Source: Pantoea sp. Cy-639 | Lineage (GTDB): Bacteria; Pseudomonadota; Gammaproteobacteria; Pseudomonadales; Pseudomonadaceae | Assembly: GCF_011752525.1 (NCBI RefSeq) | Contig: NZ_VWXI01000002.1 | Coordinates: forward strand, 186,001 to 250,000 | Direction of reading: 5' to 3' | Length of the DNA stretch: 64,000 nucleotides | Part shown: one piece after another, positions 2,072 to 6,469 of the stretch | Layout: the number at the start of each line of letters is the position of its first letter | Position numbering within the stretch: position 1 is the first letter of the stretch | The notes under the pieces: generated by a model | Seen by the model: the letters and a program-made list of their open reading frames with translations, nothing else | The model's database searches: none | Told to the model about the DNA's origin: nothing | Program-made: the position numbers and the translations under genes

Positions 2072-2542
2072 ATGACCCAGGTCACCAACACGCCTTACGA
2101 AGCCCTCGAAGTCGGCCAGAAAGCTGAGTACCAGAAGTTCGTGGAAGAGCGCGACATCCAGCTGTTCGCCGCCATGTCCGGCGACCACAACCCGGTGCAC
2201 CTGGACGCCGAGTTCGCCGCCAAGAGCATGTTCCGCGAGCGTATTGCCCATGGCATGTTCAGCGGCGCGTTGATCAGCGCCGCCGTGGCCTGCACCCTGC
2301 CTGGCCCAGGCACCATCTACCTGGGCCAGCAGATGAGCTTCCAGAAGCCGGTGAAGATCGGCGACACCCTGACCGTGCGCCTGGAAATCCTCGAGAAACT
2401 GCCCAAGTTCAAGGTGCGCATCGCCACCAACGTGTACAACCAGAACGACGAGCTGGTAGTCGGCGGCGAGGCCGAGATCCTCGCGCCCCGCAAGCAGCAG
2501 ACCGTCGAGCTGGTGAGCCCGCCGAACTTCGTCGCCAGCTGA
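2072..2542 (+). CDS. phaJ1: (R)-specific enoyl-CoA hydratase PhaJ1 (MaoC family)
   Basis: Hydrates trans-2-enoyl-CoA to (R)-3-hydroxyacyl-CoA, feeding beta-oxidation intermediates into polyhydroxyalkanoate synthesis. It has 156 residues, the length I remember for Pseudomonas PhaJ1. The hot-dog-fold active-site segment SGDHNPVHLD carries the expected Asp38 and His43, followed by the conserved RIAHGMFSG. A GGAAGC purine stretch precedes the ATG. Its place behind a lipase-like hydrolase and beside fadD2 fits a fatty-acid-to-PHA role. The choice of PhaJ1 over other Pseudomonas paralogues rests on remembered sequence and context. Confidence 0.88.
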   Translation: MTQVTNTPYEALEVGQKAEYQKFVEERDIQLFAAMSGDHNPVHLDAEFAAKSMFRERIAHGMFSGALISAAVACTLPGPGTIYLGQQMSFQKPVKIGDTLTVRLEILEKLPKFKVRIATNVYNQNDELVVGGEAEILAPRKQQTVELVSPPNFVAS

Positions 2543-2606
2543 TCGGGAAAACCTGGCACAACGTCGTCACGACCGATGCCAGGGTCGCCACCTCTCGCCC
2601 AGGCAC

Positions 2607-3845
2607 TCACTCAAGCTCGCGCAGGCGCCGCTCGATATGACGGCGCTCCGGCCCCTGGCGGGTCAGCGCCAGCGCCTGCTGCCAAGCCGCGCGTGCCTGC
2701 TCGAGGTTGCCCAGTTGCCGATGCAGCTCGGCCCGGGCGGCATGGGCCAGGTGATAATCACCGAGCTCGCCCTGGGCAAGGATCGCCTCGACCGCCTGCA
2801 GCCCAGCGCCGGCGCCATCGCGCCTGGCCAGCGCCGCCGCCCGGTTGAGCGCCACCACCGGCGACGGCCAGTGGCGCAGCAATACGTCGTACAACCCCAC
2901 GATCTCGTCCCAGTCGGTGGCCTCGGCGCTGGGAGCCTCGGCATGCACCGCGGCAATCGCCGCCTGCAGGCTGTACGGTCCGAACTGGCGGCTACGCAGC
3001 GCCTGCTGCACCAACTGGCAGCCCTCGTCGATCTGCGCCCGGTCCCACAGCCGTCGATCCTGCTCGTCGAGCAGCACCAGTTCGCCATTGGCATCGCTGC
3101 GTGCACGCTGCCGCGCGGCCTGCAGCAACATCAACGCCAACAGCCCGAGCACCTCGGCATCGGGCAGCAATTGCGCCAGCAGCCGCCCCAGGCGGATGGC
3201 CTCGTCCATCAGCGCGCACGTCGTCACATCCTCGCCCGATGAGGCTGAATAACCTTCGTTGAACACCAGGTAGATGACCCGCAGCACACTTTCCAGACGC
3301 TCGGGCAACTCGGCCAGCACCGGCACCTGATACGGGATCCTGGCGTCACGGATCTTCGCCTTGGCCCGCACGATACGCTGGGCGATGGTCGCCGGGCTCT
3401 GCAGGAAGGCCCGGGCGATCTGCTCGGTGGTCAGGTCGCAGACTTCGCGCAGGGTCAGCGGCACCTGGGCGTCGGCGGCCAGGGCCGGGTGGCAGCACGT
3501 GAAGATCAGTCGCAGGCGGTCGTCGGCAAGCAGCTCGTCCTCGGCCGGGTCCGGCACCTGGCTTTCCAGCAGCAGGATCAGGTCGGCCTGCGAACGATCG
3601 AAGCGTGCCCGTCGGCGCAGCGCGTCGATGGCCTTGAAGCGGCCAGTGGACACCAGCCAGGCCCTTGGGTTGCCCGGAACGCCGTCGCGCTGCCAGCGTT
3701 CGACGGCGATGAAGAACGCATCGTGCATGGCCTCCTCGGCCAGCTCGAAGTCCCCCAACAGACGGATAAGCGTCGCCAGGATCCGCCGCGAGTCGCGACG
3801 ATAGACCGCCTCGACCTCCTCGCGTACCTGCTGCGCCGTCACCAT
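2607..3845 (-). CDS. ECF sigma factor, ECF42-type with long C-terminal extension
   Basis: An extracytoplasmic-function sigma factor of 412 residues, about twice the usual ECF length. The N-terminal part holds sigma region 2 (about residues 10-85, with FELAEEAMHDAFFIAVERW and the AIDALRRRARF segment) and region 4 (about 120-175, with LRLIFTCCHPAL and LTLREVCDLTTEQIARAFL). The remaining 230 or so residues are helical and TPR-like, including WDEIVGLYDVLLRHWPSPVVALNRA. This architecture plus a DGPF/YCII partner defines group ECF42, which lacks a classical anti-sigma factor. The ATG overlaps the stop of the upstream SRPBCC gene (ATGA), implying translational coupling. It is the last gene of a SnoaL-DGPF-SRPBCC-sigma run. 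Confidence 0.87.
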   Translation of the reverse strand: MVTAQQVREEVEAVYRRDSRRILATLIRLLGDFELAEEAMHDAFFIAVERWQRDGVPGNPRAWLVSTGRFKAIDALRRRARFDRSQADLILLLESQVPDPAEDELLADDRLRLIFTCCHPALAADAQVPLTLREVCDLTTEQIARAFLQSPATIAQRIVRAKAKIRDARIPYQVPVLAELPERLESVLRVIYLVFNEGYSASSGEDVTTCALMDEAIRLGRLLAQLLPDAEVLGLLALMLLQAARQRARSDANGELVLLDEQDRRLWDRAQIDEGCQLVQQALRSRQFGPYSLQAAIAAVHAEAPSAEATDWDEIVGLYDVLLRHWPSPVVALNRAAALARRDGAGAGLQAVEAILAQGELGDYHLAHAARAELHRQLGNLEQARAAWQQALALTRQGPERRHIERRLRELE

Positions 3846-4330
3846 CAGTCCGGCATCCGCTGGGTCACTACCTCCACCAGTCGCTCCAGGCTCTCCCCCC
3901 AGCCCTGGTGGAAACCCATTTCCTCATGGGCCCGACAGTCGCTGGCAGTCCAGTGCCAGGCACGGGCGGTGTAGCGGGTCTTGCCGTGCTCCTCGTCGAA
4001 ACTGATCACGGCGGTCATGAAGGCCTTGTCCGAGGGTACCCAGCCGGGCCGGAACGCATCGGTGAACACCAGCCGGCGCGGCGCCTGGATCTCCAGGAAC
4101 AGCCCCTGGTGCGGATACTCGGCGCCATCCGGCGCCCGCATCAGGGTGCGGAACACCCCACCGGGCCACAGTTGCATCTCGCACTCGGGCGTGGTCATGC
4201 CGTGCGGCCCCCACCATTGCATCAACCACTCAGGCTCGGTCCAGGCGCGGAACACCTTGGCCGGTGGCGCGTCGATCAGGCGACTGATGGACAGTTCGTG
4301 CTGCGGTTGCGCCGATGGATTCAGCGTCAT
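3845..4330 (-). CDS. SRPBCC (AHSA1-like) domain protein
   Basis: A 161-residue START/Bet v1-like protein of the AHSA1 subgroup. It opens with the typical ISRLIDAPPAKVFRAWTEPEWLMQWWGP and carries the GGVFRTLMRAPDG and RYTARAWHWTASD segments, ending in a long C-terminal helix (GWGESLERLVEVV). Such domains bind hydrophobic ligands in a cavity; no ligand is predictable here. It lies 21 bases after the DGPF gene and overlaps the sigma-factor start by four bases. AHSA1-like and YCII/DGPF proteins commonly accompany long ECF sigma factors, so it is probably part of the same regulon. Confidence 0.85.
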   Translation of the reverse strand: MTLNPSAQPQHELSISRLIDAPPAKVFRAWTEPEWLMQWWGPHGMTTPECEMQLWPGGVFRTLMRAPDGAEYPHQGLFLEIQAPRRLVFTDAFRPGWVPSDKAFMTAVISFDEEHGKTRYTARAWHWTASDCRAHEEMGFHQGWGESLERLVEVVTQRMPD

Positions 4331-4351
4331 TGTTGGCGTACTCCGTCAGGT

Positions 4352-4696
4352 TCAGGGTTGCAGTTCGCGCACCGGCCGCACTTCGACGCTGCCGACCCGC
4401 GCCGCCGGAATGCCCTTGGCGATGTTCAGCGCCTCGTTCAGGTCGCGGGCATCGACCAGGTAGAAACCGGCCAGTTGCTCCTTGGTCTCGGCGAACGGGC
4501 CATCGGTCAGGCTCATCCGGCCACCGCGCACGCGCACCGTGGTGGCTGTCTGCACGGGCTTGAGCGCCTCGGCTGCCAGCATGCGCCCCGAACCTTGCAC
4601 GGATTCGGCGTAGGCCATGCATTCGGCGTCTTCGGGGCTGTCGGGCAGGCTGTGCAGCAGCCCTTCGTCACAGTAGACCAGGCACAGGTATTTCAT
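4352..4696 (-). CDS. YCII-related DGPF-domain protein
   Basis: A 114-residue protein opening MKYLCLVYCDE and carrying the diagnostic SLTDGPFAETKEQLAGFYL at about residues 62-80, the motif that names the DGPF family. The fold is ferredoxin-like (YCII); members have no proven activity, although a conserved Asp/His site has suggested an enzyme. The start ATG has GGAGA six bases ahead; a longer open frame upstream lacks support and overlaps the SnoaL-like gene. DGPF proteins are the hallmark neighbours of ECF42 sigma factors, which is what this gene is next to. Confidence 0.88.
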   Translation of the reverse strand: MKYLCLVYCDEGLLHSLPDSPEDAECMAYAESVQGSGRMLAAEALKPVQTATTVRVRGGRMSLTDGPFAETKEQLAGFYLVDARDLNEALNIAKGIPAARVGSVEVRPVRELQP

Positions 4697-4742
4697 GATC
4701 GTCTCCAACGGTTCATGGCGGTGTGGGCGGCGATGGACGGTA

Positions 4743-5168
4743 TCAGGGCTTGAGATTGAACAGCGCCTTTTGCGTTTCCATGTCGAATGGCGCCGACCAG
4801 TGCTCGTGGATGACCTGCCACTGGCCAGCGCGACGCCGGTAGCCCACGGTGGCCCGCATGAAGACGCACTGGCTGTCGTCGTCGGCCGGCCCGCAGCGGT
4901 TGAGCCAGTGGGCCAGGCCCAGGTCGCCATCGGCCTGCACGCTCAACTGTTGCATTTCGAAGACCATGGGGCCGGTGCAAAACCCCATGCACATCTCCCA
5001 ATGCGCGCGGTAGGCCGCCTTGCCTTTGAATTGCAGGGACTGGATGGCATCGAAGGCAAGCATGTCATCGGCGTAGGGGGCAACGATGCGCGCCAGGTCA
5101 CGGTCGCGCACGGCCTGCATCCACTGCTCGATCAACTCACGGATTTCGCTTTCGGCTGCGCTGTTCAT
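4743..5168 (-). CDS. SnoaL-like / NTF2-fold protein (YybH type)
   Basis: A 141-residue protein of the cone-shaped alpha+beta NTF2/SnoaL fold, opening with two helices (ESEIRELIEQWMQAVRDRDLARI) and the typical YADDMLAFDAI and VGYRRRAGQWQVIHEHWSAPF segments. Members bind small hydrophobic molecules or act as small isomerases or hydrolases; the substrate is unknown. I start it at the ATG at 5168, which has GGAGG eight bases ahead, rather than the TTG five codons earlier that overlaps this ribosome site. It heads the SnoaL-DGPF-SRPBCC-sigma run and sits just downstream of the candidate ECF42 promoter. Confidence 0.85.
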   Translation of the reverse strand: MNSAAESEIRELIEQWMQAVRDRDLARIVAPYADDMLAFDAIQSLQFKGKAAYRAHWEMCMGFCTGPMVFEMQQLSVQADGDLGLAHWLNRCGPADDDSQCVFMRATVGYRRRAGQWQVIHEHWSAPFDMETQKALFNLKP

Positions 5169-5230
5169 CGGTACGTCCTCCAAGGCTTCATCAGTGGCAG
5201 GCGGCGATCACTCCACCGCCTTCAACACTG

Positions 5231-5257
5231 GTCGAACGGAAAAACGAAAAATCGACA
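5231..5257 (-). promoter_or_regulatory. Candidate ECF42-type promoter
   Basis: Reading the minus strand, TGTCGA (5257-5252) is followed after 17 bases by CGAC (5234-5231), 62 bases before the SnoaL-like start. From memory, the promoter signature reported for ECF42 in Streptomyces is TGTCGA at -35 and CGA(T/C) at -10, which this matches. It would make the four-gene operon autoregulated by its own sigma factor. Inference only; the spacer is T-rich. Confidence 0.5.
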
Positions 5258-5272
5258 ACGGCTCGAAAACTT

Positions 5273-5725
5273 TCAGGCGAGGGGCGCGACCGGCTTGAGG
5301 AAGTACACGACCCGCTCGGTCTCGGCAAAGCCCAGGGCCGCGTGCATCCGCTGGCTACCGAGATTGTCCAGCGCGGCGTCCGAGGCCAGCTCGCGACAGC
5401 CTTGGGCCGCAGCCCACTGCTCGATGGCCGCGATCAGGCGCCGGGCGATACCTTGGCCACGCCAGGCGGGGTCGACGAAGATGCCTTCGAGATACGCTAC
5501 CGGCGAGGTATTGCTGCCGTTGACGTAGTCATGACGCACCGACGCCTCGGCCAGCCCTTGCGCCCTGCCCTGCTCGTCGTACGCCAACAGGGCCACGAAG
5601 GTGTCGGGCCGGCGGGCGATGGCAGCCATTTCCGCCAGGTGCCTGGCCGGAACGCTGCCGGGCCAGAGCGCGCTACGCAGTTGCAGCCAGGCGGTGCTGG
5701 TCGGATCGGCGCAGGAATGGATCAT
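5273..5725 (-). CDS. Aminoglycoside 6'-N-acetyltransferase-like GNAT protein
   Basis: A 150-residue GNAT acetyltransferase. It resembles the chromosomal AAC(6')-I group as I remember AAC(6')-Iy of Salmonella and the Acinetobacter enzymes: the segment RHDYVNG (64-70), LEGIFVDP (79-86), the acetyl-CoA loop RGQGIA (89-94), ASDAALDN (114-121) and the C-terminal ALGFAETERVVYF all match that group. The family acetylates the 6'-amino group of aminoglycosides with acetyl-CoA. Chromosomal copies are often weakly expressed and may have another natural substrate. Its ATG overlaps the stop of the GyrI-like gene by four bases. Actual drug modification is not shown by the sequence. Confidence 0.8.
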   Translation of the reverse strand: MIHSCADPTSTAWLQLRSALWPGSVPARHLAEMAAIARRPDTFVALLAYDEQGRAQGLAEASVRHDYVNGSNTSPVAYLEGIFVDPAWRGQGIARRLIAAIEQWAAAQGCRELASDAALDNLGSQRMHAALGFAETERVVYFLKPVAPLA

Positions 5726-6195
5726 GGGCGCTCCAGGGGAATCCAGATTTCCATCAGTGCCTGCGGGGCCGCCGGGTCGTAGCCGGCCGGGTAGCGCTCA
5801 AGGACGGCGGCCTCGGCCTGGCGCCAGTCCGAGGCCGGCAGCCACTGGGTGAAGATGGCGTCGAAGGTTGCCTTGATGCCCTCCAGGCTGCCCCGGTGTT
5901 CGAACACCGCATAGTGCTGGGGTGCCAGGACGAGGGTGGTGAAGCCTTCGGGAAGCGTGGTCGTGCCGGTCACCTCGACACCCGCCAGGTAGTCGAACGC
6001 GCCTTGCTCGTCGGGGTTGTAGCACACGCCGTAGCTGTCGTGGCCGTGCTGGCCAGGGACATGCCCGAGCCATGGGCCGAAACGCTGCCAGAGCAGCTTG
6101 AGCTCGGTCAGCCGGGAGAGGTCATAACGGTTGGACAAGCCGGCCAGGTGCAGCGTGCGGCCGTCCTCGAAGCGGGAGGGGGTTGGCAGGGTCAT
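5722..6195 (-). CDS. GyrI-like / effector-binding domain protein
   Basis: A stand-alone small-molecule-binding domain of 157 residues, of the type found at the C-terminus of AraC/BmrR regulators and in GyrI (SbmC). It shows the usual pattern: an N-terminal TLHLAGLSNRYDLS strand, an LWQRFGPWLG helix, YGVCYNPDEQGAFDYLAGVEV, the LVLAPQHYAVFEHRGSLEGI strand-loop and a final ALMEIWIPLE strand. There is no DNA-binding domain. It is translationally coupled (ATGA) to the acetyltransferase gene, so the two probably act on related compounds or conditions. Confidence 0.82.
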   Translation of the reverse strand: MTLPTPSRFEDGRTLHLAGLSNRYDLSRLTELKLLWQRFGPWLGHVPGQHGHDSYGVCYNPDEQGAFDYLAGVEVTGTTTLPEGFTTLVLAPQHYAVFEHRGSLEGIKATFDAIFTQWLPASDWRQAEAAVLERYPAGYDPAAPQALMEIWIPLERP

Positions 6196-6469
6196 GGGGA
6201 CGGGTCTCGGTGGGCGCGTTCCAGGGAGCCTTTCGCACGGGGCTGCGCGTGGCCTCGTGGCTTGAAGGCACGGTAGTGGCAGCTTGCGTTTGCGTCAATC
6301 CGGGGGATTAGGGCTATAAGCCCGAGGAGCCAACACGAGGTACTGGGTGCAATAGTCGCGCATGGGTAGGTGGTGGGGCCGAGCTGGAAGCGATAGCCAT
6401 CTCACCCACACGAAAGTGCAAGTACGTGACGCACCATTCAAGTTCAGCCAATACCGCGACGGCCAACAC

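Follow-up and report, generated by a model that had tools for sequence, protein, structure and literature searches.

A conserved, probable promoter element ahead of an ECF42 sigma-factor operon in Pseudomonas and its predicted targets

An operon whose last gene encodes a sigma factor raises the question of which sigma factor directs its own transcription. Four minus-strand genes pose this question in the window, the stretch of 64,000 nucleotides analysed here. According to the analysis, the ECF42 sigma factor encoded in this operon very probably directs the operon's transcription from a TGTCGAT-N16-CGACYA site, in a circuit that would combine positive feedback with unlinked targets. RNA polymerase carrying this sigma factor would recognize the site, in which 17 bases separate TGTCGA from CGAC, and would then transcribe the genes for SnoaL-like, DGPF and SRPBCC proteins along with the sigma gene, which would close the feedback loop. 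Elsewhere in the genome, copies of this promoter would activate a few unlinked genes whose products are small, soluble proteins. Articles cited below are drawn on in the parts available, and statements taken from them hold for those parts.

The operon and its sigma factor

Transcription on the minus strand runs from SnoaL through DGPF/YCII and SRPBCC to the ECF sigma factor, and every gene listed in the original prediction is found in its place. The SnoaL-like gene, of the NTF2 fold, occupies 5168-4743 (Pfam SnoaL_3, 3.1e-18; solved NTF2-like relative 3f7s, E 1.6e-81). Its ATG lies at 5168, and the program-made open reading frame begins at a TTG upstream, at 5183. After 46 bases follows the DGPF/YCII gene at 4696-4352, whose product contains LTDGPFAETKE, matches Pfam YCII at 4.2e-24 and has a solved relative in 1s7i (PA1349; E 2.1e-37). 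A further 21 bases separate it from the SRPBCC (AHSA1) gene at 4330-3845 (Pfam AHSA1, 1.2e-33). The stop codon of this gene and the start codon of the 412-residue sigma factor (3845-2607) share one base in the sequence TGATG, in keeping with the translational coupling first described for the pair. Going by spacing, SnoaL, DGPF and SRPBCC are predicted to be co-transcribed with the sigma gene.

Two further genes lie on the same strand upstream. Directly ahead of the operon is a GNAT gene (5276-5725, minus strand), which scores 168.8 bits against the NCBIfam aminoglycoside 6'-N-acetyltransferase model NF043067 (cut-off 140 bits). Beyond it is a GyrI-like/Cass2 ligand-binding gene (5725-6195, minus strand), whose end overlaps the start of the GNAT gene by four bases.

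The domains of the sigma factor, its extension and its YCII neighbour identify it as a member of ECF42, as had been proposed. Region 2 (Sigma70_r2, residues 15-81) and region 4 (Sigma70_r4_2, residues 114-165) both score above their Pfam cut-offs, and the Pfam match list for the protein holds no match to region 3. Residues 183-412 constitute the TPR-rich C-terminal extension of some 200 residues that is typical of the group; it contains DUF6596 at 183-282 and a TPR_2 match at 366-395 that falls under its Pfam cut-off. The DGPF/YCII gene stands nearby, as a YCII gene does in 73 of 81 ECF42 loci (the window's own counted), and use of a TGTCGA/CGA-type promoter is predicted from sequence conservation. 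The AlphaFold2 model of the protein (pLDDT 85.4, pTM 0.71) presents the extension as helical. TPR superhelices are its best Foldseek matches, with an E of 6.5e-4 but an rmsd of 11.6; a VIA match over model residues 185-411 reaches Z 15.1 with an rmsd of 3.5 over 200 residues. Helical models, however, yield TPR-superhelix matches easily and often score as high as Z 14.

A related arrangement is found in ECF41, where a SnoaL domain is fused to the C-terminus of the sigma factor and a classic anti-sigma factor is lacking. The window likewise ties a SnoaL-type domain to a sigma factor that has no classic anti-sigma factor beside it: none of the seven nearby genes tested encodes one, all belonging to enzyme or ligand-fold families. 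It differs in that SnoaL is a separate gene and that Pfam identifies the extension as DUF6596/TPR, and membership in ECF41 was rejected on these grounds.

The original prediction had the C-terminal extension replacing an anti-sigma factor. This cannot simply be so, because the TPR extension of the ECF42 group is described in a review as completely essential for activity (PMC8999054). The same review proposes that a protein partner controls these sigma factors and names YCII as a candidate (PMC8999054). In the window, the DUF6596/TPR extension may gate activity through such a partner, for which DGPF is the best candidate.

The ECF42 system itself is not new. ECF-10 of Pseudomonas putida (PP4553) has been placed in ECF42 (PMC8999054, PMC6180224), and its loss raised biofilm formation and antibiotic resistance in that organism (PMC4613276). 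A P. putida strain among the relatives compared (L006) has a sigma factor 81% identical to that of the window, the same operon order, and the same MaoC and hydrolase neighbours; the window sigma factor is probably orthologous to PP4553 of strain KT2440. The parts of the literature available yielded no promoter or regulon statement for P. putida ECF-10. PSPTO_1043, considered as another Pseudomonas relative, was rejected, since it is described there as belonging to an RpoE/ChrR-type pair and not to ECF42.

A homologue search finds ECF42 in many phyla. Sven_0747, Sven_7131 and Sven_4377 of Streptomyces venezuelae resemble the window sigma factor in their essential TPR extension and conserved YCII neighbour (PMC8999054), and RpoE10 of Sinorhizobium meliloti likewise has a TPR extension and a YCII neighbour in the published description. 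A Xanthomonas ECF42 sigma factor is reported to have been active in S. meliloti (PMC10880074). Three contigs from a viral collection (L296, L297 and L298) also carry ECF42-like sigma factors, at 47-55% identity.

The element at the operon head

TGTCGA/CGA is the ECF42 promoter consensus in Streptomyces. In the window, TGTCGA-N17-CGAC is present at 5257-5231 on the minus strand, 62 bases ahead of the SnoaL ATG, exactly as first described. Its sequence and its conservation before the first operon gene mark TGTCGA (5252..5257, minus strand) as the −35 element of a predicted ECF42 promoter. Spacing counts and column conservation in relatives define a spacer of 17 bases (5235..5251, minus strand), and the −10 element CGACCA (5229..5234, minus strand) reads CGAC, then C or T, then A in most relatives. 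Column conservation over 47 operon sites shows that the two Ts immediately after TGTCGA are mostly kept, while the middle of the spacer is weakly conserved. The pattern is one of two separated elements at nearly fixed spacing.

The bare motif was rejected as proof of a promoter. TGTCGA-N16-18-CGA has nine matches in the window, where shuffled sequences average 1.82 and none of 100 has nine, and TGTCGA-N16-18-CGAC is common in the genome, with 146 matches against 101 for its reversed control. The longer form TGTCGA-N17-CGACYA has four genome sites and none for the reversed control. One of the four heads the operon and another stands ahead of a RibD_C gene; the other two fall within long open frames and were left out of the target count. 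Because the bare pattern is weak evidence, the case for the promoter rests on conservation.

This conservation is extensive. Among loci with a detectable SnoaL gene, 22 of 24 carry the motif shortly ahead of it, and the two misses (L024 and L054) have another layout, in which the site precedes YCII or the sigma gene and YCII. A sample of 69 Pseudomonas loci, drawn from 133 (the 29 best-scoring after the window's own, 7 without a strict site, 13 divergent and 20 others), comprises 48 of type I, with genes upstream of the sigma gene, and 21 of type II, with another layout. In 47 of the 48 type I loci, no more than 150 bases separate a site from the first gene, against 2 of 48 on the reverse strand; the remaining locus reads TGTCTA-N17-CGAC when inspected by eye. 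At type II loci, the site falls just after the sigma gene in 15 of 21, and 6 of 21 have none in the stretch counted. Identical sigma rows, such as those of L054 and L272, occur in different locus sets, and the sets are not summed because some genomes equal others. Set A1 consists of the window and 57 of the 80 loci considered next. The hexamers are thus conserved in orthologous operons, and the promoter logic of ECF42 holds in Pseudomonas as had been predicted. The comparison across loci supports a real promoter ahead of the operon.

The motif is also strongly oriented. Over 80 loci drawn from many phyla, TGTCGA-N17-CGA[CT] matches the sigma strand 76 times and the opposite strand 3 times, and the N16 form does so 19 and 2 times. 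Other spacers from 12 to 24 bases give small strand differences, the largest being 7 against 2 at N14. Outside the Pseudomonadaceae, an N16-17 site is found on the sigma strand of 49 of 55 ECF42 loci and on the opposite strand of 4 of 55.

The motif and the sigma gene occur together in genomes as well. A set of 199 Pseudomonas genomes divides into 133 with a full ECF42 sigma factor (E below 1e-100) and 66 others. The strict motif TGTCGAWT-N15-CGACYA, tallied anywhere and per genome rather than per operon, is present in 125 of the 133 sigma-positive and 6 of the 66 sigma-negative genomes, with means of 2.07 and 0.09 sites per genome; the Fisher value for this co-occurrence is overstated because related genomes are not independent. 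All genomes together hold 281 strict matches and, by reading, 2 matches of the reversed control. A strict site is lacking from eight sigma-positive genomes, all of which fall within the 69 loci. Five of them (L141, L255, L258, L259 and L261) carry a relaxed site ahead of the operon, L260 has a one-mismatch site, and in L256 and L257 neither side of the sigma gene shows a relaxed site.

Four sites were examined from the six sigma-negative genomes that hold a strict site. At L210 (G052), the site survives ahead of an operon in which the genes for SnoaL, DGPF and the sigma factor seem to be truncated or decayed. The L171 (G138) site stands in a genome where nothing matches the sigma factor; it precedes a DGPF gene and is possibly a relic. 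L194 and L218 have a strict site and no recognized target.

Conservation alone does not name the protein that binds, and the motif could in principle serve an unrelated repressor or activator instead of a sigma factor. The two-element architecture with its near-fixed spacing and weakly conserved middle, the strand bias and the close co-occurrence with the sigma gene all speak against this reading, as does the agreement of the motif with those at RpoE10-dependent starts in S. meliloti (PMC6180224). Together they make it highly improbable, and leave a promoter that the window sigma factor would itself use as the favoured reading.

Autoregulation and the layout of the circuit

Since the sigma gene of the window belongs to the operon served by the putative promoter, autoregulation is predicted in the window's lineage. 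A quick tree of sigma proteins (147 of 149 rows kept, 49 open branches) places this arrangement in a Pseudomonas clade of 69 rows (SH-aLRT 99), in which the site is upstream of the sigma gene in 68; the single row without a site is L260, with its one-mismatch version. The sister clade of 22 rows (SH-aLRT 97) has the site downstream in 14, none in 5, both in 2 and a mislabelled upstream site in 1, L256, which the tree labels upstream only because its site and the beginning of the sigma frame overlap. A cross-phylum set of 78 loci has 36 with the site upstream only, 30 downstream only, 2 with both and 10 with none. Because the layouts of the clades differ, autoregulation is predicted for the 69-row clade and not for the whole ECF42 group. 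The original prediction of an autoregulated operon therefore stands for the window's lineage, and as a general rule it is contradicted by the type II loci with the site after the sigma gene, by the 30 of 78 cross-phylum loci and by S. meliloti. There, RpoE10 raises genes for ligand-binding-domain and glyoxalase-like proteins with ECF42-type motifs (PMC6180224), and when it was overexpressed its own operon, which also has a motif, showed no rise (PMC6180224).

The S. meliloti result and the 15 of 21 type II loci could also be taken to mean that ECF42 uses the sites, with the unlinked genes as its true targets, and that transcription of the sigma operon comes mainly from another promoter or from read-through, without real autoregulation. 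The surroundings of the operon lend this some weight. The GNAT stop codon is only 15 bases ahead of the −35 element, and no terminator-like site was found on the strand that the operon shares with the GNAT and GyrI-like genes, so read-through from these genes could also transcribe it. Such an account must nevertheless explain why 47 of 48 type I loci keep the site at the operon head and why 68 of 69 rows of the window's clade have it upstream of the sigma gene. Moreover, the spacing between site and SnoaL is promoter-like, whereas the S. meliloti motif overlaps the start site of its operon (PMC6180224), and no sigma-70-type promoter was found within 2500-6300. Transcription mainly by another route is thus rather unlikely, and positive feedback through the element at the operon head remains the preferred explanation.

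The predicted regulon and a possible signal

Sites away from the sigma locus indicate what else the sigma factor may control. Among the listed part of the 281 strict matches, 98 sites lie at such positions, four of them in sigma-negative genomes. Among these listed sites, 88 were assigned, and 87 precede a gene for DUF899 (29), a second DGPF (27), DUF1428 (21), RibD_C (9, or 10 with that of the window's genome, which is excluded here) or YCII (1). The 88th, at L210, heads the decayed operon and was left out of the target count. That operon aside, the assigned sites lie 20-96 bases from the estimated start, with one at 250. Four more listed sites precede two GST genes, one VOC-type gene (3-dmu-9_3-mt) and one YCII-like gene under its Pfam cut-off. 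The remaining six (L176, L191, L194, L199, L204 and L218) have no recognized target; at L191, a RibD_C match sits upstream of the strict site and not downstream. An N18 site at C6:129322 (L254) likewise has no recognized target. Pfam confirmed one representative each of RibD_C, DUF899, DUF1428 and DGPF. The column conservation of the scattered sites is partly built in because they were chosen by pattern. The placement of 87 of the 98 listed sites before a few gene families nonetheless leads to the prediction of a dispersed regulon.

Similar genes stand behind sites in other phyla. Of 85 targets, 54 were used (26 from Pseudomonas/Stutzerimonas, 1 from Litchfieldella and 4 with doubtful frames were left out), and they match YCII (35 of 54), Glyoxalase (10), 3-dmu-9_3-mt (4), AHSA1 (3) and DUF1428 (1), in a tally where one protein can match several families.

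In the window's genome, the regulon predicted from sequence consists of the operon, a RibD_C-type reductase gene whose ATG lies 32 bases downstream of an exact N17 site and, in all probability, a DUF899 gene, where reading finds CGTCGA-N17-CGACCA, with one mismatch, 31 bases before the ATG. DUF1428 has no match in this genome, and its second YCII gene adjoins none of the four TGTCGA-N17-CGACYA sites.

The target families, namely VOC, GST, thioredoxin-like DUF899, RibD_C and YCII, suggest by guilt by association the handling of reactive small molecules. DUF899 is listed in the thioredoxin-like clan (PMC3091736). The signal for the sigma factor may itself be a reactive or toxic small molecule, and the small-molecule response originally suggested from the SRPBCC and SnoaL folds stays a putative one. 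The parts of the literature available name no ECF42 signal. Nor do they describe an ECF42 regulon of Pseudomonas that contains these genes, though one may be reported in the primary ECF42/ECF-10 papers.

The proteins of the operon could stand at either end of such a response. As a sensor, SnoaL, DGPF and SRPBCC would bind a ligand and act on the TPR extension, with sensing as their first role and output as their second. The frequency of YCII at ECF42 loci (73 of 81) and the predicted co-transcription of the three genes with the sigma gene favour this, as does a YCII-sigma fusion reported in Caulobacter (PMC8999054, PMC7641849). The 27 listed DGPF sites away from the sigma locus fit an output instead, and the YCII member TftG is an enzyme, a dehydrochlorinase (PMC7641849). 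A sensor is possible rather than probable; it is compatible with transcription of the operon by its own sigma factor, and both can be true.

A wider picture may be drawn tentatively. In pseudomonads, a dispersed ECF42 regulon of small cytosolic proteins (DGPF, DUF899, DUF1428, RibD_C, VOC, GST, SRPBCC and SnoaL) might deal with reactive or toxic small molecules, a DGPF protein serving the TPR extension as feedback partner. Its loop would be closed in one clade, where the sigma gene lies behind its own promoter, and the sigma gene would stand mostly outside it in the sister clade. If this is true, positive-feedback and open-loop forms of a single circuit occur naturally within the genus. The difference in layout between the clades amounts in any case to a natural experiment on autoregulation. 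The site, the way it tracks the sigma gene and the few predicted target families together provide individually testable promoters for the role of ECF42 in Pseudomonas.
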